Origin: Lachnospiraceae bacterium
GTDB taxonomy: Bacteria > Bacillota > Clostridia > Lachnospirales > Lachnospiraceae
Assembly (NCBI GenBank): GCA_014804655.1
Contig: JAAUZK010000004.1
Span: forward strand, 192,450-256,449
DNA: 64,000 nucleotides
Direction: 5' to 3'
Shown: piece by piece, positions 6,532 to 43,242 of the stretch
Layout of the letters: each line of letters opens with the position of its first letter
Position numbering within the stretch: position 1 is the stretch's first letter
The notes under the pieces: model-generated
The model's input: only the letters and a program-made list of their open reading frames with translations
Databases searched by the model: none
What the model was told of the DNA's origin: nothing
Position numbers and translations under genes: made by a program

Positions 6532-6532
6532 A

Positions 6533-15461: not shown

Positions 15462-16574
15462 TCACTCATCCACAACAGCATACTCTTCATTTGCGATCCG
15501 TTCAGCTATCGTCTGCCTTGCAGTCTCCATCTCGCCCTGCCATCTTACATACGCCTCGTCCCACGACTCGTATGCCGCCTCGCCCCGTTTATCCGTGAAA
15601 TCATAGTTTTCCAGCAAATAGGTCTGCAGAAAATTCGTGCACTTCTCCGCCCCGACGGCGTTCGTATGACTGCCGTAATCCGCGAAATCTTCCTCGAATA
15701 TTATGCCGATCTGCTCATAATAATCGTTCATATTCAGAAACCGATAGCCGCAGGATGTCACAATCTCTCCTATATAATTGTACATCTGCTGGTCTTCTAA
15801 CGATTCCCCGTAGGGCGATACGATAAACAGCGCCTCATGATTCCCTTGCTCCAAATAATCCAATAGATCCCGCAGATACGCCTCCTGCTCCTCCGGAATC
15901 CCTTTCGTCCCCTCCGCATTGCCACAATCCGGCATGGGCAGCGGTCCCACTTCATCCTTGAAAGTATACCCCTTGAGCGGGTGCGGATTGCAGTACAGCA
16001 TATTCGCCCACTCCGATGGAAGCGCCAGCATCTTCCAATTCGTATGATATTTCATAATATCCAGATAAAAGCTGATCCTCCCCTCTTCGTTATCTTCCGG
16101 AACCATCGCCTGTATCGCCTTATTCCTGAGTACCGAATACCGCAGATTATCCGTCACGCCCCGAGTGTACGCCATATTCTCCCGAAGCCCTGCGTCTTCC
16201 ATAGTAAACATTCTCATCTCGAAAATATACAGCTTAGGATCTTGGGATTTCTCCGCCTCCTCCACCAAATACTTCATCGCCACAGGCCGCTGTACATTAG
16301 AAGACAACGGATACATTGCGATGCCGCTCTCTCCCCAGAGCTTAGGCGCTGCATAATAAGGAAAAACCGGACTCGAGCCGATCATCACGATATCCAGCGA
16401 ATCCTTCTTCTCGGCATAAAATCCCGCAAACCGATCCTTCACGTCCCCGTTAGTCCTTACCATATAAGACACCACCAGCAACACCACCAAGAAAATCGCA
16501 ATAAAGCTGACAATCTGCAAGACAATCCAAACTCTATTCTGTTCTCCGATTTCAATCTCTTCTTTTTGTTCCAT
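15462..16574 (-). CDS. SGNH-hydrolase-like membrane-anchored protein (DltD/AlgX-like)
   Basis: This 370-aa protein has one N-terminal membrane helix (residues 17-38) and an extracytoplasmic domain. The SGNH serine block is IVMIGSSPV (Ser67/68) and the C-terminal DYGSHTNAVG gives Asp299 and His303 as the matching acid and base. This layout resembles DltD and the AlgJ/AlgX O-acetylation partners that hand acyl groups to or from polysaccharides. It lies away from the MBOAT gene (22702-24276) but could serve it or another acyl acceptor. A second such protein is at 27172-28359. Function inferred from fold-level motifs only. Confidence 0.7.
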   Translation of the reverse strand: MEQKEEIEIGEQNRVWIVLQIVSFIAIFLVVLLVVSYMVRTNGDVKDRFAGFYAEKKDSLDIVMIGSSPVFPYYAAPKLWGESGIAMYPLSSNVQRPVAMKYLVEEAEKSQDPKLYIFEMRMFTMEDAGLRENMAYTRGVTDNLRYSVLRNKAIQAMVPEDNEEGRISFYLDIMKYHTNWKMLALPSEWANMLYCNPHPLKGYTFKDEVGPLPMPDCGNAEGTKGIPEEQEAYLRDLLDYLEQGNHEALFIVSPYGESLEDQQMYNYIGEIVTSCGYRFLNMNDYYEQIGIIFEEDFADYGSHTNAVGAEKCTNFLQTYLLENYDFTDKRGEAAYESWDEAYVRWQGEMETARQTIAERIANEEYAVVDE

Positions 16575-21504: not shown

Positions 21505-22614
21505 TCAACTTGAACTCTTAGTTATTAATTCCTCAATATAATCTCTCCACTGTTCGAAGACTGCCTGAATGTTCGCTCTCTCTGCGATCTTACGCGCATT
21601 GCTGCCAAGCTGCTCTGCCAGTTCGGGATTCTCGATCAAGCGATTAATTCCGTCCTCTAACGCCTGCTGATCCTTAATGGGAATCAACAAACCGTCCACT
21701 CCGTCAGTCATGATCGTCCGCGGTCCGCCGCACGGACAGTCCGTGGCCACAATGGGAAGTCCCAGCGCCATGGCTTCCATAAGAGCATTAGGAAGGCCTT
21801 CCCAGTCCGAGGTAAAGGCAAACAGCGCGGCATCCGCCAGCTCCTTTTCCAGACTGTCACTGGCGCCCATAAGGTGAATATAATCCTGTGCATGGTACTC
21901 CTCGATCAGCCCTTCCAGAATCTCTTTCGTTCCGTCGAAGGAATCTCCCCCGTATATTTTCAAATCATAATCCGGATGCTTCGCGTGCACATTGACAAAC
22001 GCCCGAATCAGCATAGGCTGATTCTTAAAGTCCACCAGTCTGCCGGACTGCACCACCGTCTTGGTCCGCACCTTCGGCATTGGCACCCCAATATATTTAT
22101 CATGAATAGGATTCAGGATAATCCGCGAATTATCCTGTAGTCTGGGTGCAAAAAAGTCCCGCGCCCCCTCTGTCTGGAAGACACACCCGTCTGCCCGTGG
22201 AAACAGCAGCGGGATCTGTATTTTATCAGACCGTTCTTCATAATGTCCCGCCGGGTCCGTCCTGATGGAAATAAGCACCGGTATTTTGATAAAATACGCT
22301 GCCATCAAACCTCTGTAGAGTGCTTTTCTCGCAAAAGGAATCAGAATATCCGGCTTCTCCTCCTTCAGAAACTTCCTCAGATACTTCACACGAAGCATGA
22401 ATTGAACGAGACGGTGCTTCTTATCATCCCCCTCGCGCAGTCCCACATGAACGCGTCTCACCTTAGAAGCAATCTGAAATTCATTCTCGCCGTACCATTC
22501 CGTGGCAATAATGACCTCATATCCCTCTTTCGCAAACTGGTTCGCCAGATTCGTGACCACACGCTCCGCGCCGCCCTGCTCTAAACAATTTAAATGAAAT
22601 GCAATCTTTCTCAT
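21505..22614 (-). CDS. Family 4 glycosyltransferase (GT-B)
   Basis: This 369-aa product opens KIAFHLNCLEQGGAERVVTNLA. The donor domain has VVQSGRLVDFKNQPML near residue 190 and WEGLPNALMEAMALGLPIVATD near 275, with the E-x7-E pair. The start is set at ATG 22614, which fits the family and has an AGGTT site; the frame remains open a further 36 bases to an upstream alternative codon. It follows the MBOAT gene by 87 bases and is the last gene of the probable Dlt-like transcription unit. It may build the sugar that is acylated. Confidence 0.87.
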   Translation of the reverse strand: MRKIAFHLNCLEQGGAERVVTNLANQFAKEGYEVIIATEWYGENEFQIASKVRRVHVGLREGDDKKHRLVQFMLRVKYLRKFLKEEKPDILIPFARKALYRGLMAAYFIKIPVLISIRTDPAGHYEERSDKIQIPLLFPRADGCVFQTEGARDFFAPRLQDNSRIILNPIHDKYIGVPMPKVRTKTVVQSGRLVDFKNQPMLIRAFVNVHAKHPDYDLKIYGGDSFDGTKEILEGLIEEYHAQDYIHLMGASDSLEKELADAALFAFTSDWEGLPNALMEAMALGLPIVATDCPCGGPRTIMTDGVDGLLIPIKDQQALEDGINRLIENPELAEQLGSNARKIAERANIQAVFEQWRDYIEELITKSSS

Positions 22615-22701
22615 GAGATTAACCTGTCTTGATACACTGTTTTTATACACCGTCTTTTACATACTTTCTCTATCGGGAACTCTTCATCTTAAGAACCGGA
22701 C

Positions 22702-24276
22702 TTAAAAACTCTGATACATAAACGCCGCCGTATCATAGCCGCCACCGTAGATTCCCGTTATCAACACGAGCAGAACGATTCCGTAATAGAACGCCCATCT
22801 GACAACTGCCGGCCTTGCAGCAAAATAGGTCCGCACATCCTCTCCCCGCTCTTCCAGTACGGACACTGCCAGCCAGATCAACAATACCACCGCCAGCAGC
22901 ATAAAATCATATTTGCTCAGTCCATAAGAAGTGATCTCCCGTGACAATAATATTCCGATCTTAAGTCGTGTCAGGAAGGTATAGAAAATCGCTCCCGCCT
23001 GCCGCAGACTCTCACTCCGTATCAACACATCCGCCATAAAGACAATAACCCATGTCCGCACCATGCAGAAGAAAGACCACGCTTTGCCGTCTTTAATATG
23101 GAGTTTTGCCTTCCAGCCGACATACTTCTGTTCCAGAAGAAGCGACGCGCTCATGATAACGCCGTAATAAACGCCCCACAGCATATAAGCAAGCGTCCTG
23201 CCGTGCCATATCCCTGTGAAAAACCAGACAAGCATCGTTCCGATGATCGGCACCACCTGCCTGCCCATGTCATTCCATTTATTCTTGCAGGCTTTATTGA
23301 TCTTACGTCCCGTTCCAGACATCACGAAAGAAAACATCACGTAATCCTTAAACCATGTTCCCAGCGTGATATGCCATCTACGCCAGAAATCCGCCACGGA
23401 CCTTGCGAAATAGGGACGCTTGAAATTCTCCGGCAACACAATATCAAATGTCTCGCTGACACCCGCCGCCATATCAATATATCCGGAAAAATCCGCATAA
23501 AGCTGAAGCATATAAAAAACCGTGGCACAGGCAAAAATACTGCCTGCCACAGAAGATGTCTCGACACCGTACACTCTGTCTACAAAAATACCGATCCGAT
23601 CGGCAATCACCAGCTTCTTGAACGCACCCCAAACAAAGCGCTGGACTCCACGAAGCATTAAGTCATATTGAAATACATGCTCCCGCTCAAACTGTTCCTT
23701 CATCTTGTCAAAACGATTGAAAGGCCCCTGTGTAACTGCAGGGAAATATGCCAGAAACAGGAGCACCTTCAGGAAATCCGTTTCTACCTTACAGTTCTCT
23801 CTTCCCGCATCCACCACATAGCTGATGGCGGTCAAGGTATAGAAAGAAATCCCTAACGGCATAATCACCTTTTCCAAAAAGCCGATATGAGAGCCTGTCA
23901 AGGTCTCTGCAAACGGCAGAAGAACCACTGCATATTTATAAAAAACCAGTAATCCCAGATTAATAGTAATATACAGGATCTGAATCCGTTTCCGCTTCTT
24001 CGAAAAGGCAGCCTTGCATGCCTTCTTGCTCTCCTTGTCGGCACACTGTGCACTCTCTGTCTTCTCACGTTCCAGAGAATTTTTCAAGTAGATGCCGCAC
24101 CCGTAGGTCGTGATAGCCGTAAGCAGCAGACCAAGCGGGAAGCCCCTAAGTCCTATGACATAGAAGACCAGGCTGGCTGCCAGCAGGATATACCACTGAA
24201 ACTTCTTCGGAACCAGATAATAAAGCGCAAAAGTCAACATCCAGAGCGCCACAAAGGAATAGGATATGAGCTGCAT
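22702..24276 (-). CDS. MBOAT family O-acyltransferase (DltB/AlgI-like)
   Basis: The 524-aa protein has about eleven membrane helices and the MBOAT signature: FWRRWHITLGTWFKDY (His302) and the catalytic histidine in WFFTGIWHGRTLAYMLWG (His358). MBOATs of this subfamily move an acyl group from an intracellular carrier to a polymer outside the membrane. The ATG directly follows the TAA of the carrier protein gene, and the binding site GGAGG lies inside the carrier gene, so the two are translationally coupled. This is the strongest evidence that the carrier feeds this enzyme. See the Dlt-like cassette finding. Confidence 0.9.
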   Translation of the reverse strand: MQLISYSFVALWMLTFALYYLVPKKFQWYILLAASLVFYVIGLRGFPLGLLLTAITTYGCGIYLKNSLEREKTESAQCADKESKKACKAAFSKKRKRIQILYITINLGLLVFYKYAVVLLPFAETLTGSHIGFLEKVIMPLGISFYTLTAISYVVDAGRENCKVETDFLKVLLFLAYFPAVTQGPFNRFDKMKEQFEREHVFQYDLMLRGVQRFVWGAFKKLVIADRIGIFVDRVYGVETSSVAGSIFACATVFYMLQLYADFSGYIDMAAGVSETFDIVLPENFKRPYFARSVADFWRRWHITLGTWFKDYVMFSFVMSGTGRKINKACKNKWNDMGRQVVPIIGTMLVWFFTGIWHGRTLAYMLWGVYYGVIMSASLLLEQKYVGWKAKLHIKDGKAWSFFCMVRTWVIVFMADVLIRSESLRQAGAIFYTFLTRLKIGILLSREITSYGLSKYDFMLLAVVLLIWLAVSVLEERGEDVRTYFAARPAVVRWAFYYGIVLLVLITGIYGGGYDTAAFMYQSF

Positions 24277-24507
24277 TTATTCCTCCAACAGTTTCTGCAC
24301 GAGGGCGATGATAGCTTCTTTGTTCTTGAAGTTCTCAGCCACTACATATTTTGCGTCAATTTCGATATCAAATTCATCCTCAAGGTCGCTGACTACATTG
24401 ATGACGGTGAAAGAATCGATGACACCGTCCTCCATCATGCTGTCGCCATCGTAGGACAGCGCTTCCTCACAGTGTTCTTCCAGAATTTCTAAGATTTTTT
24501 CTTCCAT
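24277..24507 (-). CDS. Acyl/aminoacyl carrier protein (DltC-like)
   Basis: This 76-aa acidic protein has the four-helix carrier pattern and the phosphopantetheine site in GVIDSFTVINV (Ser32). DltC-type carriers have DS-x-x-xx-V here, whereas fatty-acid ACPs have DSL; the F at +1 is unusual. Helix II/III acids (DLEDEFDIEI) are typical. AGGAG precedes the ATG. It stands between a formyltransferase and the MBOAT gene. Likely role: holding an aminoacyl group made by the ligase at 25548-27053 as a thioester until it is passed to the MBOAT. Confidence 0.88.
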   Translation of the reverse strand: MEEKILEILEEHCEEALSYDGDSMMEDGVIDSFTVINVVSDLEDEFDIEIDAKYVVAENFKNKEAIIALVQKLLEE

Positions 24508-24568
24508 TATGTAATGCTCCTTTCAAAAAATAAGATAGGGGTGTATCGCCGTACGTCTATGTAATGTA

Positions 24569-25438
24569 TTACAAATTTACATCCAAAAAACGATATTTCA
24601 TCTTTAACAAATCGCCCGCTCTTAATTTCAGATATAAAAATCCTTCTTCATCTTTACGCTTATCGGCGGGTATCTTGCGGTATCGCAGGATTTCTGCCTC
24701 CCGCCCGTCTACGATCGTCCGCATCAGCGGGAAAATATCATTCTTACCGTAATCTACGCTTCTAAGCAGGCGATAGACATTCTCCGGCCGGTCCGTCAAC
24801 GCAAAGAAGCCGTCTGCGGGCACTTCCCGTGAACGGTACATCCTTCGATCAGGGTCAAAGTCCTGCGGGATCGCCGCCACACTCTCAGTAATGATATCCG
24901 CAAAGCTCTCCCGGAACGCCTCTGACGCAAGATTCATGAGTTGTTCCGTCAGTTCATAGGCCTTCATATCTGCTGTGATCTCACATTGTTTCTGAATGAT
25001 AATGTTGCCCTCATCCACACCGGAGGTCACGTAATGCCATGTGATACCCGTTTTCTTTTCCCCCATATAAATAACCCATGTGGGCGCGTTTCTGCCGGGG
25101 TAATCAGGCAGAAGGGCATTGTGAAAATTGATAATGGTGATATTCGATTTGTCCACAAGGGAAGGCGGAAACAGGAAATTATTGCTGGCGCTTATAATCA
25201 GTGTTTTCTCCGTAATCCGATCAAGGACTGCTTCCAGCTCCTTCTTATCCGTGATCTGTGTAAAAGGGATATTGTTTTCCGCACAGATCTTCTCCGTAAT
25301 ACTTAAGGGATGTATCTCGTGCTCGATAAACTCTACCTGATACCCGTATTCTTCTCTTCTGTCATATACATACTGTAATACTTCTCCGGTTACCTTACCG
25401 TAACCGAGGATGACAACTTTCTGAAATGTTGTCTTCAT
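24569..25438 (-). CDS. Formyltransferase-fold protein within the Dlt-like cassette
   Basis: The 289-aa product carries the formyltransferase core: IINFHNALLPDYPGRNAP with Asn104 and His106, then GVDEGNI with Asp142. The N-x-H spacing and the 36-residue distance to Asp match the N-H-D catalytic triad of methionyl-tRNA and sugar N-formyltransferases that use 10-formyl-tetrahydrofolate. The N-terminal half has LGYGKVTGE in place of a Rossmann opening. ATG 25438 suits the family; ATG 25468 is in frame but lacks a binding site. Its place between adenylating ligase and carrier suggests that it formylates the amino group of the carried amino acid, as formylation domains do in linear gramicidin synthetase (inference). 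Formylation of a sugar amine is the alternative. Confidence 0.8.
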   Translation of the reverse strand: MKTTFQKVVILGYGKVTGEVLQYVYDRREEYGYQVEFIEHEIHPLSITEKICAENNIPFTQITDKKELEAVLDRITEKTLIISASNNFLFPPSLVDKSNITIINFHNALLPDYPGRNAPTWVIYMGEKKTGITWHYVTSGVDEGNIIIQKQCEITADMKAYELTEQLMNLASEAFRESFADIITESVAAIPQDFDPDRRMYRSREVPADGFFALTDRPENVYRLLRSVDYGKNDIFPLMRTIVDGREAEILRYRKIPADKRKDEEGFLYLKLRAGDLLKMKYRFLDVNL

Positions 25439-25547
25439 ACCACCGCCCATGCCTTTCTGTATAGCCATGATTATTCAAAACGCTACTATCATACCCATAT
25501 CCTTATACATCACGTTCAGGTGCTACCTTTGGTGAAGATGTGAACAG

Positions 25548-27053
25548 TTATAAGTATTCCTTCAGCTTCACCCGGTCAATCTTCCCGTTCGCATTGATGG
25601 GCATGTTCGGAAGTGTGACCACCTTATTCGGCAGCATATATTCAGGCACAAGACTGGAAATTTGTTCATTGATATATGCCTTGTCCAATTCCTCCTCGAT
25701 AAACAGCACGATCTTCTGCCGCTTTTCGTCATAGAGACAGCAACAGAGCGCGATCTGATCCAGAGAGGAAACCGCCGTCTCGATCTCACCTAATTCAATC
25801 CGGTGCCCCATATGTTTGATCTGGAAATCTTTGCGGGACAAGTAGATGATCTCACCGTATTCGTTATATTTCACCAGATCGCCGGTGCGGTAAATAGTTT
25901 CAGGCACATATGGATTCAGTGGATTCTGTACAAAGGCTTCCTTCGTCTTCTCAGGATTATTGTAATATCCCATGGAAAGTGAAGTGCCCCTGACGCAGAG
26001 CTCCCCGATCTCATCTCCTGTAACCGGCTCGTTTCTATCATTCAGGACGATAATATCCGTATTTGCCATCGGGATGCCGATGGGCAGCGGTTCATCATCT
26101 GTGAATTCACGGTCTACAATATAATAAGTGCAGGCATCCGTAATTTCGGTAGGTCCGTACAAATTTGCGTACTGAACATCCGGCAGGAATCTGCGCCATG
26201 TATTCAGCTGTTTATTAGGCATAACTTCGCCGCAGAACAACACCCTGCGCAGTGTGTCCGACAGATCAACATTGCGAAATGCTTTTAACTTGGCCACCAC
26301 GATCAGCGCCGACGGCACCCAGAAGATTGTGTTGATTTTATTTTCTTTCAGATATTCCAACAACGGCACCGGCTGCGCAAACAGGTTCTTCGGAATAATA
26401 TATGTAGTCGCGCCGCTCTTGATCGTGCTGTAGATATCCAGAATCGAATTGTCGAAATAGAAAGGCGCCTGATTGCCGAAGGTGTCCTCCTGCGTAATCT
26501 CAAAGGTCTCCGTCACCCAATCTATATAATCAATCACAGACCGGTGGTTGATGGTCACGCCCTTAGGCACACCGGTGGAGCCGGAAGTAAAGAGGACGTA
26601 CAGCAGATCCGTATCGATGCCTTTACCTCTCGCCGCCTCAATGGCCTCTTCGTCAACCGAGCCGCCTATAGCCTCCTCAAACAGCACATAATCTCCCTTA
26701 TAATCGAACCGTTCAAAGACCGGCTGCAGTTCCCTGCTCGTCACCACGAGTGACGGCTGCAGCACTTCCAAAATCTTATTCACGCGGCTTGCAGGCATGT
26801 CCACATCGATAGGCGAGTAGAAATTGCAGCTATAGGCCGCGCCCATAAAAGAAACCAGTACATCAACACCTTTTTCCAGATAGATGACTACCGGTTTCTT
26901 AAATAATTTCCTCTCTATCATCTGTGTAGCCAGTGCCTGCGCCTGCGTGCTCAGTTCCCGAAAAGTAATCTCTTTCTTTTCGTCCGCAAAGGCGATCTTA
27001 TCCGGCAGTCTGCGCGCGGTTTTATCCAGCCAGTAGGTAACATTTGCTTTCAT
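25548..27053 (-). CDS. Amino-acid adenylating ligase (DltA-like)
   Basis: The 501-aa AMP-binding enzyme has LFTSGSTGVPKGV (154-166, A3), FYFDNSILDIYS with Asp201, the residue that normally pairs with the alpha-amino group, VLFCGEVMPN with Cys274 in a DltA-like pocket loop, NLYGPTEITDACTYY (A5), YRTGDL (A7) and the C-terminal NGKIDR with Lys491 (A10). Length and motifs fit DltA (D-alanine:carrier ligase) rather than acyl-CoA synthetases. It would activate an amino acid, possibly D-alanine, and load it on the carrier at 24277-24507. It shares a transcription unit with SGNH, formyltransferase and MBOAT genes. Confidence 0.87.
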   Translation of the reverse strand: MKANVTYWLDKTARRLPDKIAFADEKKEITFRELSTQAQALATQMIERKLFKKPVVIYLEKGVDVLVSFMGAAYSCNFYSPIDVDMPASRVNKILEVLQPSLVVTSRELQPVFERFDYKGDYVLFEEAIGGSVDEEAIEAARGKGIDTDLLYVLFTSGSTGVPKGVTINHRSVIDYIDWVTETFEITQEDTFGNQAPFYFDNSILDIYSTIKSGATTYIIPKNLFAQPVPLLEYLKENKINTIFWVPSALIVVAKLKAFRNVDLSDTLRRVLFCGEVMPNKQLNTWRRFLPDVQYANLYGPTEITDACTYYIVDREFTDDEPLPIGIPMANTDIIVLNDRNEPVTGDEIGELCVRGTSLSMGYYNNPEKTKEAFVQNPLNPYVPETIYRTGDLVKYNEYGEIIYLSRKDFQIKHMGHRIELGEIETAVSSLDQIALCCCLYDEKRQKIVLFIEEELDKAYINEQISSLVPEYMLPNKVVTLPNMPINANGKIDRVKLKEYL

Positions 27054-27171
27054 AATATATGACCAAACCTTTCTCTTATTTCACAGTCATTCCGGTCAGG
27101 GGAAAAATCTCCGCTCTCTTGTCGCGGCAGACCAGCCGGCTATGACTCCTGTCTGCCGCAACTCATCACGC

Positions 27172-28359
27172 TTACGGAGCTGTCGGATAGAATGTGTCCG
27201 GTATCTTCTCTGTCTTCACGTGATATATATCATACAGATCCGTCATTTCAAGTCCGCATCCCGCCGGATCGTACGATCCGTACAACGCCACGCCACGATC
27301 TGCCGCCATCTGCCTGATCCTCTCCTCCACCTGAAAAGTGACATGAAACTGCTCCTCAGATTCTATGTAATTATACATCATGGGGGAATAGGGTGGCAAG
27401 TATAACATCACTTCCACGCCCTGCGCTTGCAGATAGTCGATCAATCCGTTAAGCAGCGCTACGCTTTCCTCATCCATCTCGTCATAATCCGTCAAACGGT
27501 AGACGACGTGCTCTTCCATAGACTGTCTCGTCAATTCTTCCACTTCACTCACATCCACATCCCGCAGGCTCTTCTGATATGCGATACTGCCGTCGTAATG
27601 CTTCAGATACTGTTCCGCCTCCCAATCCTGTGTGTATGTAACCGCGAAACGTTTATGCGACGGAAGGCAAGTAACGTTGTAGCGGAAATAGTCTAAGGAC
27701 AGCCATTTGTTGTTATTCCTACCGGTACCCGGTTGTGAATGTATATCTGTGCCTGTTATGCCGGCGATCTTTTCCTGTTGCTCCTTTTGCACCATAGCTT
27801 GACCGGTTTCTTCCTTTACATAAGCCGTATCGCCCGACAAATCTTCTGTCGCCGACTCATCGCCTCTATCTTCCAACCCCTCTATCTTTCTCTCCATATA
27901 GACAGCATAGTCCTCCAGCTCTTTCCACCGGTCATTATTATGGCTCGCATTGAAAAGAAACGCATCCACCCCGATAATCATCCTCTCAGGCAGACATCCC
28001 GCCTGATCCAGAATCCCGGCCACCGCCAGAAGATCGTAGATTGTGGACTCCGACAACGCTGTGTTGTAAAAGGAATCCGTATCAAACATCGTATGGTCGA
28101 AATTCATCACCCGGCTGGAACCTGCAACGATCAGCTCTTTCGCCTCCTCCTGCTGCTTCAGACAGGCCAGCAGCAGGCTTCTGTCGTTAAAGTCCGACTC
28201 CTGAAGCCCCATCACATTCATGGAACCTCCCACCATCTGTTCACCGATCTGATCATAGGTCACCCGCAGATATGCATAGGAATCCACATACCAGTTGACC
28301 GCCGCCACCATACACATAAGCGGCAGGATAAATAAAACTGCCTTACACCACTTTTTCAT
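27172..28359 (-). CDS. SGNH-hydrolase-like membrane-anchored protein (DltD-like)
   Basis: This 395-aa protein has a signal-anchor helix (residues 5-24) and an extracytoplasmic SGNH-like domain: LIVAGSSRVMNF (Ser81/82), and YDIYHVKTEKI with Asp377 and His380 near the C-terminus. DltD and AlgJ/AlgX have the same layout and act with MBOAT proteins. A low-complexity charged insert (about 160-215) divides the domain. It is the first gene of the Dlt-like set in transcription order (SGNH, ligase, formyltransferase, carrier, MBOAT). It probably acts in final acyl transfer or editing on the polymer. Confidence 0.77.
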   Translation of the reverse strand: MKKWCKAVLFILPLMCMVAAVNWYVDSYAYLRVTYDQIGEQMVGGSMNVMGLQESDFNDRSLLLACLKQQEEAKELIVAGSSRVMNFDHTMFDTDSFYNTALSESTIYDLLAVAGILDQAGCLPERMIIGVDAFLFNASHNNDRWKELEDYAVYMERKIEGLEDRGDESATEDLSGDTAYVKEETGQAMVQKEQQEKIAGITGTDIHSQPGTGRNNNKWLSLDYFRYNVTCLPSHKRFAVTYTQDWEAEQYLKHYDGSIAYQKSLRDVDVSEVEELTRQSMEEHVVYRLTDYDEMDEESVALLNGLIDYLQAQGVEVMLYLPPYSPMMYNYIESEEQFHVTFQVEERIRQMAADRGVALYGSYDPAGCGLEMTDLYDIYHVKTEKIPDTFYPTAP

Positions 28360-28398: not shown

Positions 28399-30201
28399 TT
28401 AATGATCAAGATGAAACCAGCCTTGTACGCTCTCTTCCTGCAAATTATTATAAGATAGATACAAATATTTCCAAACCATGTCAGAGTACTTCATATCATC
28501 GTAATAAGAAAATATTTCTCCCTCTGCATCCATAACCATTCCGAAACTTCCCGTCACCGGAACCTCGTCCCGCATACGGTTCATATAGCGATAATACGGC
28601 ATCATCTCCACTCCTGCCTTTTCTAACAAAAGCGGAACCAATCCGTTTACGCTGATCACTCCCATATCCTCACTGTCAATATCATAATTTGCCCATATAA
28701 TAAACGGCGTTGCCCGCGCCAAAATCTCCTGCTTAGGAGAATCAATTTCCGCAACTTCCCGTATAAAATTCGGTGCATGATCTCCTACCATACATATGAT
28801 GACGGGCTGTTCTTTCCCGGAATAATACTCTGTAAGTTCCTTAAACGCGATATCGCTGAGACGAACGCAGGAAAGGTATTCGTTCAATTCCTTTTCCAGA
28901 TCGCCGCCGTATCCGGAAACATGAACCAGTGTTTCCTCCGCATCGTTCATCATGTAATCACCGTGATTCTGCATGGTAAGCAAATATGAGAAGATTTTGT
29001 CATGATCGGCTTTTCTGCTCTCATACCATGCGGTCAGATTGTGATAAGCGCCTTCATCCGTCATCCATTCACGTTTTCCATAATACATATAGTTTTCGAA
29101 ATCTTCTTTAAAAAATCTTTCGTCAAATCCCATAGCGGAATAACTTTCTATCCTGTTATAATTTCCGCCGTCCGCCGGATGTGCCGCCATCGTGTAATAT
29201 CCGCACTCCTCCAAATTCGTTACTATGCTGCTCGTACAAGACATATCCAGAACATTAAAGGGCGTAAGTTCACCTAATAAGTAGTTCGTATTACTTGTCA
29301 GCAGCTCAAACTCCGAACGGTTTGTTGCCCCGCCGATCACGGATGTTACCGCATTTCCCCTGATCGCATTGCCCATGCTGTAATAATTTTCCATGTAAGG
29401 TACATCAGTCCGCAGATCACATAAAATCGACAGATCATAAAAGGATTCGTTTAAAATCAGAATGATATCCGGCAGTTCCTCACCGGCACCTTCCTTGTCA
29501 TCCTTATAATCTTCATAATCGGTCAGAAGCTCTTCATCATAACCGTCGGGCTGTGTAATTTTGATATTATTCAAGAATACATTGGCATACACATACAGGG
29601 GATATCCTTCTTCAATACAAGTATTTCTGGACGTCCAATCCCTTAATATCACACCTTGCAGATTCTTTGCGGGAAACGACATTACCCACATCATACACCC
29701 ACCGGCAAGCAAAAGCGCAACTCTGCATATCACAGCTTTTCTCCCGGATATTTTTTCCTCCCCCGCAACAACTCTTTTCTGCAAATAACATAACACAATA
29801 CTGGAACCGTATATGATCAGAACCGCTGTGCCGAAAATCAACGGCGTTTTCTTCAGCAGTAATGTTGTATCCATCACGTGCAGCGCCGTCTTTGCGTTCG
29901 AAATCTCCGCTAAAGTAAATACCTGTCCGTGCAGCGCATATACATAGTCGTTTACCAAAGCCCACACGGCACATGCCGTACTGAATATAAGTCCCGTTAT
30001 CCATGGTGTCGGTGAAAAAGAAGCTATAATACAGTAAACAGCCGTCAATAACAACAGATTGCATAATATATACGCAGGCTTCGTCATTAACAACCTTCTG
30101 GCAACATGGCAGCTCGCCTGCAATGTTATAAAATTGGTATATAGCATTAAAATAATCAAACCGAATAACGCTGCTTTTTTCTTCACTGTCTCTTTCTGCA
30201 T
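28399..30201 (-). CDS. LtaS/MdoB-type phosphoglycerol (or sulfatase-like) transferase
   Basis: The 600-aa protein has five N-terminal membrane helices (to residue 180) and an extracellular alkaline-phosphatase-superfamily domain. PDIILILNESFYDL gives the metal-binding Glu252, IGGATNRSEFELLT gives Thr293 as probable nucleophile, and CMVGDHAPNF near 485 gives the late D-H metal ligands. LtaS-type enzymes use this to move glycerol-phosphate from phosphatidylglycerol to a polymer. Next to the Dlt-like cassette, it suggests a glycerol-phosphate-bearing glycan that is then aminoacylated, as in lipoteichoic acid (inference). Phosphoethanolamine transfer is an alternative. Confidence 0.85.
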   Translation of the reverse strand: MQKETVKKKAALFGLIILMLYTNFITLQASCHVARRLLMTKPAYILCNLLLLTAVYCIIASFSPTPWITGLIFSTACAVWALVNDYVYALHGQVFTLAEISNAKTALHVMDTTLLLKKTPLIFGTAVLIIYGSSIVLCYLQKRVVAGEEKISGRKAVICRVALLLAGGCMMWVMSFPAKNLQGVILRDWTSRNTCIEEGYPLYVYANVFLNNIKITQPDGYDEELLTDYEDYKDDKEGAGEELPDIILILNESFYDLSILCDLRTDVPYMENYYSMGNAIRGNAVTSVIGGATNRSEFELLTSNTNYLLGELTPFNVLDMSCTSSIVTNLEECGYYTMAAHPADGGNYNRIESYSAMGFDERFFKEDFENYMYYGKREWMTDEGAYHNLTAWYESRKADHDKIFSYLLTMQNHGDYMMNDAEETLVHVSGYGGDLEKELNEYLSCVRLSDIAFKELTEYYSGKEQPVIICMVGDHAPNFIREVAEIDSPKQEILARATPFIIWANYDIDSEDMGVISVNGLVPLLLEKAGVEMMPYYRYMNRMRDEVPVTGSFGMVMDAEGEIFSYYDDMKYSDMVWKYLYLSYNNLQEESVQGWFHLDH

Positions 30202-30249: not shown

Positions 30250-32025
30250 CTAACTCTCCTGATTCCCGAAGCTGTAACTAAACAGCACCGGAAACGCTGC
30301 AAACAGCCCATACGCATAGCGGAATTCATTGTACACCGGTGTTGCCAGCATAAGCGTTGCAAGTAGCATAATAAACGGCACATAGATCATGATGCTGCTC
30401 CGCTGATACAGTGTATACGCCATTGCAAACACCATAAGCCATGTGCTGAGTCCCAGACTCCACACTTTATTGTAAAGATCCTGAAATCCTATCAGAAAAT
30501 CGTGCATTCCAAGCTCCGCTTCATAGGTAAAAAGCTTCCTCTGCGTGGTGATCCCGAACGGATTATCCACCATGTAATACTCCCCGTATACATACTCATA
30601 ATCCTTTACATCATAAGCCCAATATCCCGCCGTCTGTCTGACCTGTGCCACCACATACTGCAACGGATTGCGAAGTCCTACTCTGAACCACAATTTGAAA
30701 TATTCCCATTTATTGTCGGCGATGACCTGCTGATCACCGTCGCTGCGTATGAAGTTCTTAACAATGTCAAACAGCCACGGATTATAGTAATCTCCTACCT
30801 CTTCTACCGGCACAACCCTGTCGATCATCGCAACTTCTTCTTCGGTCAGTTCTCCGCCCTTGAGATAAGCGCACAAGATATGCTGTGTGGGCATGGTCAG
30901 CCCTTCGATGGTGTCAGGCGGCTCCACCTGAAGCGCTTTTAATACCGGCCCATGGTAGATCAGATAACACAATAATACTGCCGCCACGCATAGAAACGTT
31001 CTGCGCGGGAAGTGTTGCTTTTGTACTATTTTAACGATCAGCAGGATCAAAGCAGTGCCTGCATATATAAAAACACCGTTACTGCGCAGGACACAGAGCA
31101 GAAAGCCGATGACTACATATCGAATTGCTCTTGCCAGCGAAATTCTCTTTGTGTATCCGGAATACGCACCCCATCTTCCGCCGCCATGTTTATATAATGC
31201 CGCATCCGACGGCGTATCCTCGTCCACGCTCTGCCGTGCCTCGTCCCCTGTGCCTTCCGCATCTAAGTCATATTCCACAGTCATCCACATAAAAAGCAGC
31301 AACGCGGCTGTAAAAAATTCGTCCTTACCCATACAGATCGTCAAAAGGCCATTGATCGGCAGGAACGCATAGAAAGCCACCGCCAGCACCAGCCATAATA
31401 GCCTCGTTCCCCTTTTATAGAGCTGATACAGGAAAAAGGCGAACACCATCGCCATAACAAGCACCTGAACAAAAGTATAAAATGCGGCTCCGCCTATATA
31501 ACTGCCGGAAAACCGATAACCAACCATAAAAAGGCCTTTCAGAATCAGCGTGTGAAAATAAGGATGGTGGTTCGATGCCGCCGCCCATCCCAAAGCCTGC
31601 TCAATCTGCCACACTGCATCGTTATTAAGCCATGTGGGATAATACATCAGATAATAAGGCAGATAACCCAGCAGGCAGACTGCCGTAAACAGAAGATAAA
31701 CATACCATTTCCCCTGCCGCCCCTTCTTTTCGGAAATGCGGGATAGCAGTGGAATCTTTGAAGCAGCCTCAGAAACAATCTCAACCCTGTTTGACAGGAT
31801 CAGACACATTCCAAGGAGCACCCCATAGCTTCCGAACATCCATAGCAAAGCACGCCCCAGATTCTGCAAAATGCTAAGAGATGCCACTTTTTCCAATGCA
31901 CCGAACATAGCCGCCATAGTATAAAACAGCGCAAAAGGGATCAGTATGAGAAACTGCCGCTTATTTGGCATTTTGATTATTTTGTTTTCACTTACTGTAT
32001 GTACTTCCCTTGATTCCCTGCTCAT
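30250..32025 (-). CDS. DUF6020 family membrane protein, GT-C-like
   Basis: This 591-aa polytopic protein has about twelve helices and the DUF6020 feature after the second helix group: YYPTWLNNDAVWQIEQALGW, then NHHPYFHTL. The acidic residue and HHP in this outer loop recall GT-C glycosyltransferases. A low-complexity insertion (around 255-295, DEARQSVDEDTPSD and a glycine run) lies in a loop. I set the start at ATG 32025, because it overlaps the upstream stop as ATGA; a GTG at 32031 is also possible. A paralogue is at 50215-52026. Probable outer-face sugar transferase; not proven. Confidence 0.75.
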   Translation of the reverse strand: MSRESREVHTVSENKIIKMPNKRQFLILIPFALFYTMAAMFGALEKVASLSILQNLGRALLWMFGSYGVLLGMCLILSNRVEIVSEAASKIPLLSRISEKKGRQGKWYVYLLFTAVCLLGYLPYYLMYYPTWLNNDAVWQIEQALGWAAASNHHPYFHTLILKGLFMVGYRFSGSYIGGAAFYTFVQVLVMAMVFAFFLYQLYKRGTRLLWLVLAVAFYAFLPINGLLTICMGKDEFFTAALLLFMWMTVEYDLDAEGTGDEARQSVDEDTPSDAALYKHGGGRWGAYSGYTKRISLARAIRYVVIGFLLCVLRSNGVFIYAGTALILLIVKIVQKQHFPRRTFLCVAAVLLCYLIYHGPVLKALQVEPPDTIEGLTMPTQHILCAYLKGGELTEEEVAMIDRVVPVEEVGDYYNPWLFDIVKNFIRSDGDQQVIADNKWEYFKLWFRVGLRNPLQYVVAQVRQTAGYWAYDVKDYEYVYGEYYMVDNPFGITTQRKLFTYEAELGMHDFLIGFQDLYNKVWSLGLSTWLMVFAMAYTLYQRSSIMIYVPFIMLLATLMLATPVYNEFRYAYGLFAAFPVLFSYSFGNQES

Positions 32026-33161
32026 CCGCACAACCTTGATTTCCTTTGTATCCTGTTAGATTCCGCCCACTCCCGTATCTTCTCGATATAGGATTCCGCC
32101 GTATAATCTGCTGCGCGCTTACGTGCCATCTCACGATAATGCTCCATCTTATCCTGATCTTCCAGAAGCGTCATGATCTGCTGCGCCAGATTTTTCTCCT
32201 CGTCCGTGATATTTTCGGAGGCAAAATCCACGTCAGGGCTCATATTCGGAATCAGAATACCATATTTATCTTCCAGTATCTCTCTCGGACCTGTCATACA
32301 GTCCGTGGCAATCACGGGAAGCCCCATAGACATGGCCTCCACCATGGCATTGGGGAATCCTTCATAATAAGATGTCAACACATACAGGCTTCCCCTTTTC
32401 AGATAGGGATAAGGATTCTTCTTTAGGCCAGTAAAATAGACGGCATCATCAACGCCAAGCCTAACAGCCAACTCTCTGTACTCTGTGAATTCCCCTTTTC
32501 CGATGATCATTAGTTTCACATCCGGCAGCTTCTTATGCACCAGCGCAAAACTTTTCAGAAGATGCCAGAACCCCTTGACCGTATCCTCACGTCCCATGGA
32601 TATAAGAATTCTCCCATCACTCCAAGGCAGCTCAGCCTCCTCCCGCTCGGACAACGCTTTCACTTCCTTCATGTCAAAGGGATTCTGCAGCGTCACTGCT
32701 TTATCGCAATGGTATTTATCCTGTACTTCACGGCAAATGGTCTCCGAACAGCAGATCACTCTGTCCGCGCTCTTACAGAACAGGCGGATCTGTCTCGGAT
32801 TGCCCATATCCATATAGCTTCTGATACCAAGCCACCTGTATCCCCTGCCGCCGGACGCAATATTTGCAAGGTTCGCGGTCGGACCGAAACTATAGGCAAT
32901 GTCGATCTGCTCCCTCTTCTTCAAGCGGCGCAGTTTCCAGCCGCGTTTTAATACATTGATAATCTTACCAAGCTTGTCCGGACGGCTGGGCAGGCGCAGA
33001 TCCGCCACCGGAATGCCTTTGATATCATACGCCACATTACGGGAATCAAAGATGGCGATCTGTACATCAAAATACGGCTGCATAAGCTTCGCAGTCGCCG
33101 CGCATACCTTCTCTAATCCGCCCTGATGCAGGGACGGCACGATCAATAACAGTTTCTTCAT
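32022..33161 (-). CDS. Family 4 glycosyltransferase (GT-B)
   Basis: The 379-aa protein opens LLLIVPSLHQGGLEKVCAAT. The donor half has ILISMGREDTVKGFWHLL near residue 195 and YEGFPNAMVEAMSMGLPVIATD near 275, with the E-x7-E motif. The start and stop are both in 4-base ATGA overlaps: with the upstream GT4 (33158-33161) and the downstream DUF6020 gene (32022-32025). The three genes are therefore a tightly coupled block. Specificity unknown. Confidence 0.88.
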   Translation of the reverse strand: MKKLLLIVPSLHQGGLEKVCAATAKLMQPYFDVQIAIFDSRNVAYDIKGIPVADLRLPSRPDKLGKIINVLKRGWKLRRLKKREQIDIAYSFGPTANLANIASGGRGYRWLGIRSYMDMGNPRQIRLFCKSADRVICCSETICREVQDKYHCDKAVTLQNPFDMKEVKALSEREEAELPWSDGRILISMGREDTVKGFWHLLKSFALVHKKLPDVKLMIIGKGEFTEYRELAVRLGVDDAVYFTGLKKNPYPYLKRGSLYVLTSYYEGFPNAMVEAMSMGLPVIATDCMTGPREILEDKYGILIPNMSPDVDFASENITDEEKNLAQQIMTLLEDQDKMEHYREMARKRAADYTAESYIEKIREWAESNRIQRKSRLCG

Positions 33162-34407: not shown

Positions 34408-35328
34408 CTACGCCAACACATCCCCCACCGCGATCTGGCTTACACTCTCGTACCGATCGATCAGTAAGGAACCATCCACCGTACGCACTACCGGCTTGCC
34501 GTCAAATATATCGATCACCTCTCCCGGCGCATAAGCAGAGAAATCGATCATCTCATCAAATGGATGCGCTTCCCATACCGTCACCTTCTCTTCCCCGATC
34601 ATGGCATAAGCCCCCGGAAAAGGAGCCGCAACACCGCGGATCAGGTTGTAGATTTCCCTTGTTCTCGCATGGAAGTCGATCTTGCCATCCGCCGCCGTCC
34701 GTTTATTATACCACGAGTCATAGTCCTTAGACTCCGTGCGTATCACGATATTATCCTCCTCATAAGCCTTCAGCAGTTTCCGGATCAGATTCTTGGAGCA
34801 GATCATGTTCTTATACTGCGCCGTCCGGATGTCATCGTGAGGCGTGATGGAAAACATTTCCGTTGAAAACACATTGGGGCTGTCCGCCTTTTCATCATAG
34901 CGGAACATATTCAGATTGAATCTGGTATCCCCCAGGATAATAGACCAGTTAAGCGGCGACCGCCCTCTGCCGAAAGGAAGATAACCACAGTTCCCATGGA
35001 ATCCGTAGATACCATACTTGAACGCATCCAGAACAGAAGGCGGTATCAGCCTCTGCCATCCCATGGAAATACCAATATCAAATTCATTTTCCTGTATAAA
35101 CTTCTGCGTTTTCTCATCTGTCAGGAAATAACTGTCCGCCTCATGCACCGGAATCCCGTATTTCTCAGTCAGGATCGACAGCCCTTTATACCCAGACACC
35201 TGATTTTTCTTCGTCACCTCCGGGCTGATGGTAATCACCAGATCCACCGGACAAATCTGCTCCTGTATGAAGTTCACAATATTCTCTGAAGTATCCTTTA
35301 CGCCGAATACCACTACTTTGTATTTCAT
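34408..35328 (-). CDS. Formyltransferase family protein (sugar N-formyltransferase-like)
   Basis: This 306-aa protein has an N-terminal formyltransferase domain and a C-terminal OB-like domain (from about 200, RGVAAPFPGAYAMI), as in Fmt and ArnA-N. The core reads YGFHGNCGYLPFGRGRSPLNW with His111; the usual Asn two residues earlier is Gly109. ADSPNVF places Asp149 at the third triad position. The start at ATG 35328 has AGGAGG six bases upstream, better than ATG 35343. It could formylate a 4-amino sugar, such as that made by PglF/PglE or RffA in this locus (inference). The missing Asn means activity is uncertain. Confidence 0.78.
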   Translation of the reverse strand: MKYKVVVFGVKDTSENIVNFIQEQICPVDLVITISPEVTKKNQVSGYKGLSILTEKYGIPVHEADSYFLTDEKTQKFIQENEFDIGISMGWQRLIPPSVLDAFKYGIYGFHGNCGYLPFGRGRSPLNWSIILGDTRFNLNMFRYDEKADSPNVFSTEMFSITPHDDIRTAQYKNMICSKNLIRKLLKAYEEDNIVIRTESKDYDSWYNKRTAADGKIDFHARTREIYNLIRGVAAPFPGAYAMIGEEKVTVWEAHPFDEMIDFSAYAPGEVIDIFDGKPVVRTVDGSLLIDRYESVSQIAVGDVLA

Positions 35329-35468
35329 CTTATTCCTCCTCATCCTTCCGTCTTCCGATTTTCCAGTTTATGACCACTCAGTAACATAATAAATTCTCGG
35401 GACTATTGTTTTATATCAATACCGGCATAAATCGTTGTTTGCCCCCAAATTTGATTTCTCTGTAAAAT

Positions 35469-38211: not shown

Positions 38212-39594
38212 TTATTTTTTTAATGTTACCTCTCTGACTAACAGAAACAGAGCCGTATAAAACAACGAAAATCCATAGATCATATACCGCGACAGGCACA
38301 TGATAGTTATGGATGTGGCACATACGTTAGCTGCAATAAAAAGAAGCGCCACGCCCATCACCCACGCGGCATCCTGCCCGCCCTCTCTCAGCATCACATC
38401 CATGTTCTTCCGCCGTCTTCCGCGAAATACCTGCCGCACGGCAAGTCCGATCGCCACCGCATACAGAGCAAGCGCCAGCCAGTTGAGCACCAGATGTACC
38501 ACCGCCACACTTCTAATAAACCCATAGACACATAGCGATATATAATCATACAGCCATTGCCCGAAGCAGGCCGGCAGAAGTTTTGCAAGCATACGCCCTG
38601 CCAGTTCGTCCGACATACTGCTTTGCTGATAATAATCCACTTTACCCAGTCCAAAGAAATAAGCAGACATATCGGCTTCCAACACCTGAAATTTCAATTC
38701 ATCATGATGACTCTCCAGATGTGCCGCCCGTTGCGCAAACGTGCTGCCTCCGTACCGGTAGTTAGCCTCTATGGCATCTGCCTCATCGTAGAACCGCTCA
38801 AAAAATTCCCGTTCAAGACTGCCGTCTTCAAACACCTCACCGTCTTCTCTGTCACAGGCATAGATCACATTGGTCAGCGTATTGACCTGCGCATAAGTAT
38901 TCCCCATAAAATATCCTGTAACGCCGTAATTGTATACATGAACCGTCAGGCTGCGCAGACCAAATACCGCAATTGCAGCTATTATAGGAATAAATAACGT
39001 CTGATATTTCTTGTAAAATAACATCTGTAGCAGTAATACCACCATCCATATAAGGATCGTAATCATCATCTGTCCCCTGGTCATAGACAACAGGAAAGCA
39101 AACACCAGGCTTATAATCCGATCCCGTCTGTGCTGCTCAAACACCATACGGAGCAGATAATACATAAAAAAATGGAACAGCGGAATGCACAGCGCCTCAC
39201 TCATCACCGAATTTTCCAGAAATATATGCAGTGCGGACACATATCGCGTCATCAGGTGCGGCACAAGCTGCAACAGCACAACAAGCAGTTCTTCCCATAA
39301 CCACAGACGAAAGTGCGCTGCAACATACTCCGTAAATATCCATATCCCCACTGCCGTCAGCACATTCTGCGCCACTGCCGCCACAGTCAAATAAGCGTCA
39401 CCGCATATTTTCCGAAAAAAGGCCAGAAACAACGGATATAACGGCTCTCTGTGTATATGCATCGTAATATACTGCTCCGAGTCATTGTAGACACCCACCC
39501 CGCAGGCTGCCAGCATTCCTAAGAAGAACATAAGCAGCGCCGCAAGAATACACCATGATTTAATTGTTTTTTTTCTATTAATTACAGTCTCCAA
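38212..39594 (-). CDS. Polytopic membrane protein, GT-C-like glycosyltransferase candidate
   Basis: The 460-aa protein has about ten hydrophobic segments. The first outer loop holds YNDSEQYITMHIHREPLYPLF, with D-x-E and a following REPLYP motif common in membrane mannosyl/glucosyl transferases. The frame starts at TTG 39594, which overlaps the last codons of the dehydrogenase gene by 13 bases; GAGGA lies inside that gene. A later start would cut the first helix. I do not recognise a named family. It probably transfers sugars from a lipid carrier, and it sits between two nucleotide-sugar genes. Confidence 0.65.
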   Translation of the reverse strand: METVINRKKTIKSWCILAALLMFFLGMLAACGVGVYNDSEQYITMHIHREPLYPLFLAFFRKICGDAYLTVAAVAQNVLTAVGIWIFTEYVAAHFRLWLWEELLVVLLQLVPHLMTRYVSALHIFLENSVMSEALCIPLFHFFMYYLLRMVFEQHRRDRIISLVFAFLLSMTRGQMMITILIWMVVLLLQMLFYKKYQTLFIPIIAAIAVFGLRSLTVHVYNYGVTGYFMGNTYAQVNTLTNVIYACDREDGEVFEDGSLEREFFERFYDEADAIEANYRYGGSTFAQRAAHLESHHDELKFQVLEADMSAYFFGLGKVDYYQQSSMSDELAGRMLAKLLPACFGQWLYDYISLCVYGFIRSVAVVHLVLNWLALALYAVAIGLAVRQVFRGRRRKNMDVMLREGGQDAAWVMGVALLFIAANVCATSITIMCLSRYMIYGFSLFYTALFLLVREVTLKK

Positions 39595-40898
39595 TACAGA
39601 TAATCCTCTGTCAGATACTCTTTCCTGTTCAATACACCCTTAATGTCCAATAGGACCTTCCGTTTATGCGACGCTGCATAGAAAAAATCGATCCGGTCTC
39701 TGTCCAGCTTTAAGAAGTCATCATGAGCTACCGCGATAATTACCGCATCCATGTCCTTAACCTCCTCCATCGACCGGAATGCAATTCCGTACAACCGCTT
39801 TGCTTCCTCTGCATCTGCTGCAGGGTCCACCACTATAGGATCTATACCGTACTCTCCCAGTTCCTTATAGATATCGATCACCTTCGTATTTCTCGTATCC
39901 GGACAGTTCTCCTTGAAGGTAAAGCCCAGAATCGCCACACGGGCATGTTTCACCGGAATATCCGCTTTGATCAGATTCTTCACAAGACTCTCCGCCACAT
40001 ATTTCCCCATATCATCATTGATACGGCGTCCGGACAGAATAATCTGTGAATGATAGCCCAGTTCTTCCGCCTTATAAGTCAGATAATAGGGATCTACGCC
40101 GATACAGTGTCCGCCCACGAGTCCGGGCATAAATTTCAGGAAGTTCCACTTCGTCCCGGCAGCATCTAACACCGCCCGCGTGTCGATATCCATCTTGTGA
40201 AAAATCATAGAAAGTTCATTCATGAACGCAATATTAATATCTCTCTGACTATTTTCGATGACCTTTGCAGCCTCTGCCACCTTAATGGACTCCGCACGGT
40301 ACACGCCCACCTCTACCACCAGTTCATATATCTTGGCAACGATATCCAGCGTCTCCTCGTCCATGCCGGACACGATTTTCGTGATAGTCTCTAATCTATG
40401 GACTTTATCGCCGGGATTGATACGTTCCGGCGAATAACCGATCTTGAAATCCACGCCGCACTTTAACCCCGACTCTTTCTCCAGAATCGGCACACAGATA
40501 TCCTCCGTCACACCTGGGTACACGGTAGATTCAAATACCACAATCGATCCCTTCGTCAGATTCTGTCCCAGGATACGGCTGGCTCCCTCCACCGGCGTTA
40601 AATCCGGCGTATGGTCATCATTCACCGGCGTGGGAACAGCTACGATATGAAACTTCGCTTCCCGAAGCTTCGCAGGGTCGGCAGTAAAATCTACCTTAGT
40701 GTTTCTGATCACCTCATCTCCCACCTCGTTGGTCGGATCGATGCCGCTCTTATACAGTTCGATCTTCTTCTCGTTCAGATCAAATCCCACCACATTAATT
40801 TTCTTAGCAAAAGCAACGGCAATCGGCATACCCACATAACCCAGTCCCACGAGAGATAATTTTTCCTCTCCTTTTACAATCTTCTCATATAAGTCCAT
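39582..40898 (-). CDS. Nucleotide-sugar dehydrogenase (TviB/WbpO-like UDP-HexNAc 6-dehydrogenase)
   Basis: The 438-aa protein has the NAD-binding GLGYVGMPIA (18-27), VPTPVNDDHTPDL (88-100), YSPERINPGD (155-164), the catalytic cysteine Cys265 in GGHCIGVDPYYL, and GFTFKENCPDTRNTK in the C-terminal domain. The sequence style (YSPERINPGDK, GGHCIGVDPYY) matches the UDP-N-acetylhexosamine dehydrogenases TviB and WbpO rather than UDP-glucose dehydrogenases. GGAGG precedes the ATG. With the epimerase at 37186-38163 it supplies a HexNAc-uronic acid, a possible target of the AsnB proteins. Confidence 0.88.
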   Translation of the reverse strand: MDLYEKIVKGEEKLSLVGLGYVGMPIAVAFAKKINVVGFDLNEKKIELYKSGIDPTNEVGDEVIRNTKVDFTADPAKLREAKFHIVAVPTPVNDDHTPDLTPVEGASRILGQNLTKGSIVVFESTVYPGVTEDICVPILEKESGLKCGVDFKIGYSPERINPGDKVHRLETITKIVSGMDEETLDIVAKIYELVVEVGVYRAESIKVAEAAKVIENSQRDINIAFMNELSMIFHKMDIDTRAVLDAAGTKWNFLKFMPGLVGGHCIGVDPYYLTYKAEELGYHSQIILSGRRINDDMGKYVAESLVKNLIKADIPVKHARVAILGFTFKENCPDTRNTKVIDIYKELGEYGIDPIVVDPAADAEEAKRLYGIAFRSMEEVKDMDAVIIAVAHDDFLKLDRDRIDFFYAASHKRKVLLDIKGVLNRKEYLTEDYLYWRL

Positions 40899-43204: not shown

Positions 43205-43242
43205 CCAATACCCGGCACAGATGGAAATTAATTTCTTAAGGA
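43205..43242. repeat. MITE-like repeat, truncated copy D (left end only)
   Basis: The bases from CCAATACCC to CTTAAGGAG match the left arm of the 160-200 bp repeat (copies A-C), but the interior and right arm are absent. The TAA stop and last Pro codon of the phosphosugar transferase gene lie within it (43236-43241), so the insertion or its remnant defines the C-terminus of that protein. Confidence 0.75.

Follow-up and report, generated by a model that had tools for sequence, protein, structure and literature searches.

A Dlt-like cassette with a built-in N-formyltransferase in a Lachnospiraceae surface-polysaccharide locus: a candidate route to formyl-aminoacyl decoration of a surface glycan

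The window, a stretch of 64,000 nucleotides from a Lachnospiraceae bacterium (contig JAAUZK010000004.1, positions 192,450 to 256,449), contains a cassette of five genes that resembles the Dlt system but includes a gene for an N-formyltransferase. All five genes are on the minus strand and, in transcription order, encode an SGNH-type protein, an amino-acid ligase, the formyltransferase, a carrier protein and an MBOAT acyltransferase (Table 1), with gaps of 118, 79, 61 and 0 bp between them. An earlier note had listed these genes in this order, with the carrier stop adjoining the MBOAT start, and the arrangement was confirmed in full. The residues on which that note relied are also present: Ser32 of the carrier, within an IDSF motif kept in relatives; His358 of the MBOAT, where W357 and H358 are conserved in 97% or more of 45 MBOATs; the ligase aspartate for an alpha-amino group; and the N-x-H...D signature of the formyltransferase, found as N114, H116 and D152 and invariant in 15 of 15 aligned sequences.

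Table 1. Features of the cassette and of its surroundings (positions in the window)
Feature	Position	Strand	Support and remarks
SGNH-fold protein, DltD/PatB-like role, 395 residues	27172..28359	-	Invariant GSS 80-82, D377/H380; poor model
Stand-alone amino-acid adenylation ligase, DltA-like, code DNLFLCLDAK	25548..27053	-	TIGR01733, 346 bits
10-formyltetrahydrofolate-type N-formyltransferase, carrier-linked clade	24569..25468	-	PF00551, 3.5e-21
Carrier protein, DltC-like, Ser32 in IDSF	24277..24507	-	NF003464, 7.5e-9, below cut-off
MBOAT acyltransferase, 524 residues, His358	22702..24276	-	PF03062, 3e-13
FMYQSF hexapeptide, MBOAT residues 519-524, matching the FXYXXF acyl-shuttle motif	22705..22722	-	Motif described in passages of PMC12148441
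Glycosyltransferase, downstream; frequent neighbour of the cassette, surface-glycan context	21505..22650	-	PF00534, 3.2e-33
Second SGNH-type protein, possible alternative partner	15462..16574	-	No Pfam or NCBIfam match
LtaS/sulfatase-type protein, upstream	28399..30201	-	PF00884, 1.5e-22; outside the conserved core
Second formyltransferase, sugar-type, with Formyl_trans_C	34408..35343	-	84-98% identity where matched in window-type loci
UDP-sugar dehydrogenase	39582-40898		
Initiating sugar transferase	43236-43877		
UDP-GlcNAc 4,6-dehydratase-type enzyme	45473-47356		

The ligase passes the amino-acid adenylation cut-off of TIGR01733 (346 against 317 bits) and misses those for DltA, with 331 against 476 bits for NF003417 and 323 against 559.85 bits for TIGR01734. 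A canonical DltA was not found in its own genome, where the single match to the DltA profile at E 1e-70 or better is the cassette ligase itself. Similarly, the carrier misses the DltC cut-offs (35.5 against 68 and 20.6 against 52.35 bits) and the MBOAT that of DltB (150.8 against 375 bits), the nearest solved sequences to the latter being the DltB-type entries 6bug and 8jem. The formyltransferase, which matches Formyl_trans_N, reaches no NCBIfam cut-off, including those of the sugar formyltransferases ArnA (72.9 against 777 bits) and PRK07579 (42.3 against 238 bits). Its model has a predicted local distance difference test score of 90.8 and the two-domain formyltransferase fold. Among 47 formyltransferases, the N-x-H...LP stretch is present in every one and the longer pattern up to the Asp in 45, the other two deviating next to the catalytic residues.

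The last six residues of the MBOAT are FMYQSF. In the passages of PMC12148441 on acyl transfer, FXYXXF is an acyl-shuttle motif, which Dlt has on the microprotein DltX and PatA at its own C-terminus. This ending is found in 42 of the 46 MBOATs from the formyltransferase loci (a set that includes the second MBOAT of locus L091); the exceptions are two MBOATs truncated at contig ends and two with FEYAQY as their last residues. It is also found in 13 of 15 cousin MBOATs from loci that lack a formyltransferase, the remaining two being one cut protein and the DltB-type MBOAT of L056, which lies beside a ligase over the DltA cut-off. The gaps of 0-118 bp leave no room for a DltX gene within the cassette, and DltX was not searched for elsewhere in the genome. 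Since the motif is on the MBOAT and a carrier is part of the cassette, the carrier seems to be joined to a fused shuttle, also in the cousins without a formyltransferase. Thus, the cassette may be described as a Dlt-type supply unit, consisting of ligase and carrier, joined to a PatA-type export unit. Like Dlt (DltA, DltC, DltB, DltX, DltD), it combines a stand-alone adenylation-domain ligase, a carrier, an MBOAT and an SGNH protein in one operon; unlike Dlt, it has a different ligase code, a shuttle fused to the MBOAT and an extra formyltransferase. In effect, the idea of a plain Dlt system was not borne out, given the fused shuttle and the scores of ligase, carrier and MBOAT below the Dlt cut-offs. 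With PatA/PatB-type systems the cassette shares the C-terminal shuttle and the SGNH partner. These systems use acyl-coenzyme A (acyl-CoA) and no carrier protein, according to the passages of PMC12148441 that deal with them, while in the cassette an adjacent and conserved ligase and carrier would supply the acyl group, which speaks against an acyl-CoA donor.

No Pfam or NCBIfam family matches the SGNH protein, and a PDB profile search with 31 SGNH sequences gave no match up to E 5. GSS 80-82 and D377/H380 are nevertheless invariant in 31 of 31 aligned sequences, and its low-confidence model aligns to SGNH hydrolases and DltD, which supports the fold only.

The cassette is conserved among its closest relatives. 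The earlier note had named an unconserved gene order as a refutation, and this did not come about: all five genes are found in the same order and on one strand in 33 of the 36 window-type loci (the window, L015 and L091-L124), the other three (L015, L105 and L108) being cut by contig ends. Within the 33, a single additional gene separates formyltransferase and carrier in L097 and L113, and in L102 the SGNH gene is split and the MBOAT gene cut. L091-L099 were counted in place of L013, L014 and L016-L022, which represent the same contigs. In the genus sample, a window-type ligase is present in 34 of 60 genomes at 79-100% identity (matched over the C-terminal three quarters only in four of the 34), and all of these are within the 35 genomes, the own one among them, that hold the formyltransferase (profile, E 1e-40).

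Outside the genus the formyltransferase is rarer. Of 299 family genomes, 9 contain members, own genome included (single-protein query, E 1e-20). The tallies for order, class and phylum are at least 2 of 392 (E 1e-50), at least 2 of 391 (E 1e-40) and at least 2 of 398 genomes (E 1e-40), these three being lower bounds with at most six first-look candidates scored per genome. The order and class matches are the own genome and G108, already known; that of the phylum added one genome to the own. The relatives comprise 11 loci, of which eight are from Lachnospiraceae, one from a Clostridia bacterium and one from 'Bacterium 0.1xD8-71'; L023, from Bacteroidetes and matched over 20 residues, completes the 11 and was excluded. 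Among the eight other family genomes, L025-L028 keep the order ligase, formyltransferase, carrier and MBOAT, and L030 has the four permuted. Of 47 formyltransferase loci, 42 have a ligase within 2 kb and 42 a carrier within 2 kb. If L024 and L029 are counted, a carrier is within the locus in 46 of 47, the exception being L031; the own carrier of L029 is weak to the carrier profile and is an acyl carrier protein by NCBIfam. The linkage is kept despite re-ordering in L030, L125 and L126. It recurs in a different family of the same phylum, in L180, with a 4-bp overlap between ligase and formyltransferase and the carrier after them. The formyltransferase stays linked to the module down to 29-38% identity.

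Features of the ligase give some information about the amino acid. The pocket code is DNLFLCLDAK in 33 of 34 window-clade ligases and DNLFMCLDAK in the remaining one. The canonical DltA of L056 has the code DLMVLCTVAK, from which the window code differs at 5 of 10 positions; Cys301 and Ala331 are common to both, and the window code adds the polar residues Asn236 and Asp330, the latter being an extra Asp. A small polar or diamino acid is a possible substrate on these grounds, and to our knowledge the window code has no close match from which the amino acid could be read. The Asp235-equivalent, which binds the amino group, is present in all 43 formyltransferase-linked ligases, as the earlier note had held for the window ligase. 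In 4 of 27 ligases from loci without a formyltransferase (L050-L056 and 20 taken from lower-scoring ligase matches) it is replaced by Ser. There were 25 such matches; the other five are G060, already represented by L050, the three formyltransferase-linked L125-L127, and G1059:C11, which was left out. The Ser-type ligases, L055, L160, L164 and L165, have codes beginning SMLY or SIWY, are without a window-clade formyltransferase and probably do not load alpha-amino acids.

In some related cassettes the codes contain basic residues. An Asp/Glu-type racemase is within 3.5 kb in five of five loci with DAKCAGLGMK (L161, L166, L169) or DARCAVLGVK (L167, L171), and in none of the three with DAKDMLLGDK (L050, L159, L162). 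Together, codes and racemases suggest acidic (D-)amino acids in these cassettes, a reading of the Lys/Arg239 codes that leans partly on a glutamate code of surfactin synthesis. Consequently, the charge of the product may differ from cassette to cassette. The neutral product inferred by the earlier note is therefore unsupported, considering also the extra Asp of the window code and its distance from the L056 DltA. The ligase tree has several long branches, and two ligases, those of L127 and the first of L180, are split in two open reading frames (ORFs) and were kept as split.

Loci in which single components have been exchanged are informative about the substrate of the formyltransferase. In L029, the carrier is followed by an amino acid--[acyl-carrier-protein] ligase (NF005479, 4.3e-46, below the curated cut-off) and then by the formyltransferase, with whose ORF the ligase ORF overlaps. 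This ligase is of the class-II aminoacyl type, unrelated to the adenylation-domain ligase in whose place it is found. In L125, an amino-acid racemase (TIGR00035, over the cut-off) separates ligase and formyltransferase, which argues for an amino acid as the substrate. In other loci it is the tailoring gene that differs. L172 has a GNAT acetyltransferase between ligase and carrier and no formyltransferase. The closest branch to its ligase in the tree (sister, 100/97) is the ligase of L127, which is formyltransferase-linked and has the same code, DVKIMSLCNK. L158 also lacks the formyltransferase; its ligase is sister (99/99) to the window ligase clade, and an AAC(3)-like acetyltransferase ORF overlaps the ligase start by 4 bp. 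GNATs, AAC(3)-like or pyridoxal phosphate (PLP) decarboxylase-like proteins are near the ligase in further loci. In all, tailoring-type neighbours were counted in 15 of 27 formyltransferase-less and 3 of 43 linked ligase loci, a comparison biased by 11 queries that were drawn from those loci.

The L029 loader, the different tailoring genes, the L125 racemase and the aspartate of all 43 linked ligases favour a carrier-bound amino acid over a sugar as the substrate. Thus, the aminoacyl-carrier would be formylated before export and the formyl-aminoacyl group then moved to a surface glycan, a reading to which we give a probability of roughly 0.62. This central proposal of the earlier note stands as the best-supported one, through the linkage, the L029 loader, the acetyltransferases and the racemase, although the neutral product attached to it does not. 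From the gene content, linkage, motifs and differing tailoring genes observed, we infer the chemical steps, their order and the acceptor as follows. The ligase would adenylate an alpha-amino acid, with Asp201 holding the amino group, and load it on the phosphopantetheine at Ser32 of the carrier. The cytosolic formyltransferase would then cap this amino group with formyl from 10-formyltetrahydrofolate. The MBOAT might take the formyl-aminoacyl group from the carrier onto its own Tyr521, in the FMYQSF shuttle, across the membrane, and the SGNH protein might pass it to the glycan that the surrounding locus makes, where the acceptor would be a hydroxyl (or amino) group. Formylation between loading and export fits best because the ligase would be expected to require an unblocked amino group and formyltetrahydrofolate is cytosolic.

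Several observations weigh against this reading. The nearest solved sequences to the formyltransferase are sugar N-formyltransferases, with 119 bits for WbkC against 61 for the formylation domain of LgrA in a profile search. WbkC is a formyltransferase of the GDP-perosamine type, and the LgrA domain has reportedly been proposed to derive from sugar enzymes. In the fold comparison, sugar, tRNA and hydrolase types are within about 2 Z units, so that the substrate is not separable by fold; LgrA chains are not among the 50 fold matches listed, which tells nothing for or against. Linkage also has its exceptions: in L024, ligase and carrier are 6.7-7 kb from the formyltransferase, and the L031 formyltransferase has neither in its 20 kb, with an MBOAT and an SGNH gene alone beside it. 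The genome of L031 holds, elsewhere (L053), a ligase-carrier-MBOAT-SGNH cassette without a formyltransferase. Regarding the exchange of tailoring genes, L126 has a GNAT and a formyltransferase together, no MBOAT was matched in L158 before the contig end, and the acetyltransferases could serve amino sugars instead. Moreover, 12 of the 27 formyltransferase-less ligase loci have none of the tailoring types looked for among the neighbour genes scanned, and the Ser-type L165, counted among the 27, has a formyltransferase-like gene of lower score (90 bits) some 1.8 kb off. Finally, the model behind the SGNH assignment is poor.

An alternative is that the substrate of the formyltransferase is a nucleotide-linked amino sugar (4- or 3-amino) destined for this glycan, and that the enzyme merely shares an operon with the Dlt-like unit. 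The enzyme resembles sugar N-formyltransferases (WbkC, QdtF, ArnA) in fold and catalytic residues and is closest to them by sequence; its context, in contrast, is a ligase-carrier module, and the ArnA and PRK07579 cut-offs are missed. The locus already has a separate formyltransferase of the sugar type (34408-35343). Furthermore, an action on sugars leaves unexplained the insertion between ligase and carrier, the carrier linkage that persists when genes are re-shuffled, the pairing with an amino acid:carrier ligase in L029 and the acetyltransferases at the corresponding place, and is thus considered unlikely. It is quite improbable that the formyl-aminoacyl-carrier is made for another acceptor, such as a lipid, a small molecule that is secreted or a sugar intermediate inside the cell. 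Related modules may differ in this respect, as the carriers of L024 and L180 precede a KAS III-like gene instead of an MBOAT gene; window-type loci, however, lie among glycosyltransferase and polymer genes and keep MBOAT and SGNH, pairs of which act on envelope polymers according to the relevant passages of PMC12148441. Least probable is that the enzyme works on a free amino acid, makes a non-formyl product or is encoded by a passenger gene, for while catalytic residues alone leave the substrate unfixed, a formylated amino acid should load poorly on ligases that all keep the Asp for a free alpha-amino group, and a passenger would hardly keep its N-x-H...LP stretch in 47 of 47 cases, the longer pattern in 45 and its linkage down to 29-38% identity.

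Formylation of the aminoacyl-carrier before export would combine known chemistry in a new setting. Peptide synthetases are known to N-formylate carrier-bound amino acids, as described in a passage of PMC8949500. LgrA and other initiation modules with formylation, adenylation and thiolation domains (F-A-T) likewise pair a formyltransferase containing N-x-H...D with an adenylation domain and a carrier. By contrast, the cassette encodes these as three separate proteins that would feed an envelope acyltransferase, with no peptide synthetase; the matched formyltransferase ORFs, of 288-336 residues, are too short for an F-A-T fusion. The lipopolysaccharide of Vibrio anguillarum O2 carries an N-formyl-L-alanyl substituent, as stated in a passage of PMC10059132 that gives no pathway. 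This is a formyl-aminoacyl group on a bacterial glycan, although on a Gram-negative O antigen. The earlier note knew of no Dlt system with such a step, and the literature search, judged from titles and abstract openings of the papers listed, agrees with it in giving no described Dlt-like envelope system with a formyltransferase. Nor was the combination of a carrier with a fused-shuttle MBOAT found described, as judged from listings and passages of PMC12148441. Carrier-bound N-formylation and formyl-aminoacyl groups on glycans are both known, and no source covered describes such a step as part of a Dlt-like envelope system. The cassette also breaks the division made in this literature between a carrier-fed Dlt with separate DltX and a CoA-fed PatA-type MBOAT with fused shuttle.

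Through Dlt, envelope polymers acquire a positive charge. With a formyl cap, the amine would lose its charge and the cell surface would display an N-formyl-aminoacyl group, which chemically resembles the ends of newly synthesized bacterial proteins. More tentatively, at somewhat less than even odds, the cassette might belong to a family of one-module, carrier-based glycan decorators in Lachnospiraceae-type bacteria, in which ligase and carrier are combined with an exchangeable tailoring enzyme (formyltransferase, GNAT, AAC(3)-like acetyltransferase or PLP decarboxylase-like enzyme) and a shuttle-MBOAT with SGNH partner, racemases supply D-amino acids, and the outer charge of the glycan is set by swapping the tailoring gene. 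If true, chemistry of the nonribosomal-peptide type would serve as a capsule-editing kit. The differing tailoring genes beside close ligase relatives yield a testable prediction.

The cassette is located in a large surface-polysaccharide locus. Apart from the genes in Table 1, this locus includes several glycosyltransferases, two DegT aminotransferases, two ABC exporters, one AT3 acyltransferase and two presumed AsnB-like amidotransferases, labelled by eye from the sequence. On this gene content, the glycan probably contains amino sugars, with a separate formylating enzyme at hand; the likely function of the second formyltransferase is to formylate an amino sugar of the same glycan. The upstream LtaS/sulfatase-type gene is matched in L013 and L014 and unmatched in L016-L022. 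Relatives of the second SGNH-type protein, whose gene is itself far from the cassette, directly adjoin MBOATs in L030, L031, L053 and others. Two DUF6020 membrane proteins are encoded at 30250-32031 and 50215-52026, one of them a frequent cassette neighbour.

Other genes were observed beside related modules. A PLP decarboxylase-like gene is found next to a DVK-code ligase in L054 (9916-11109) and L168 (6543-7721); a parallel is the decarboxylation of carrier-bound glutamate in butirosin synthesis. The KAS III-like genes, at L024:16372-17436 and L180:9955-11019, follow the carrier in the place of the MBOAT and are possibly another route for handing the acyl group to a sugar. In L160, where no MBOAT was matched, a gene of the sodium:solute symporter family (6243-7826) lies between ligase and carrier, and a similarly sized gene takes this position in L164.

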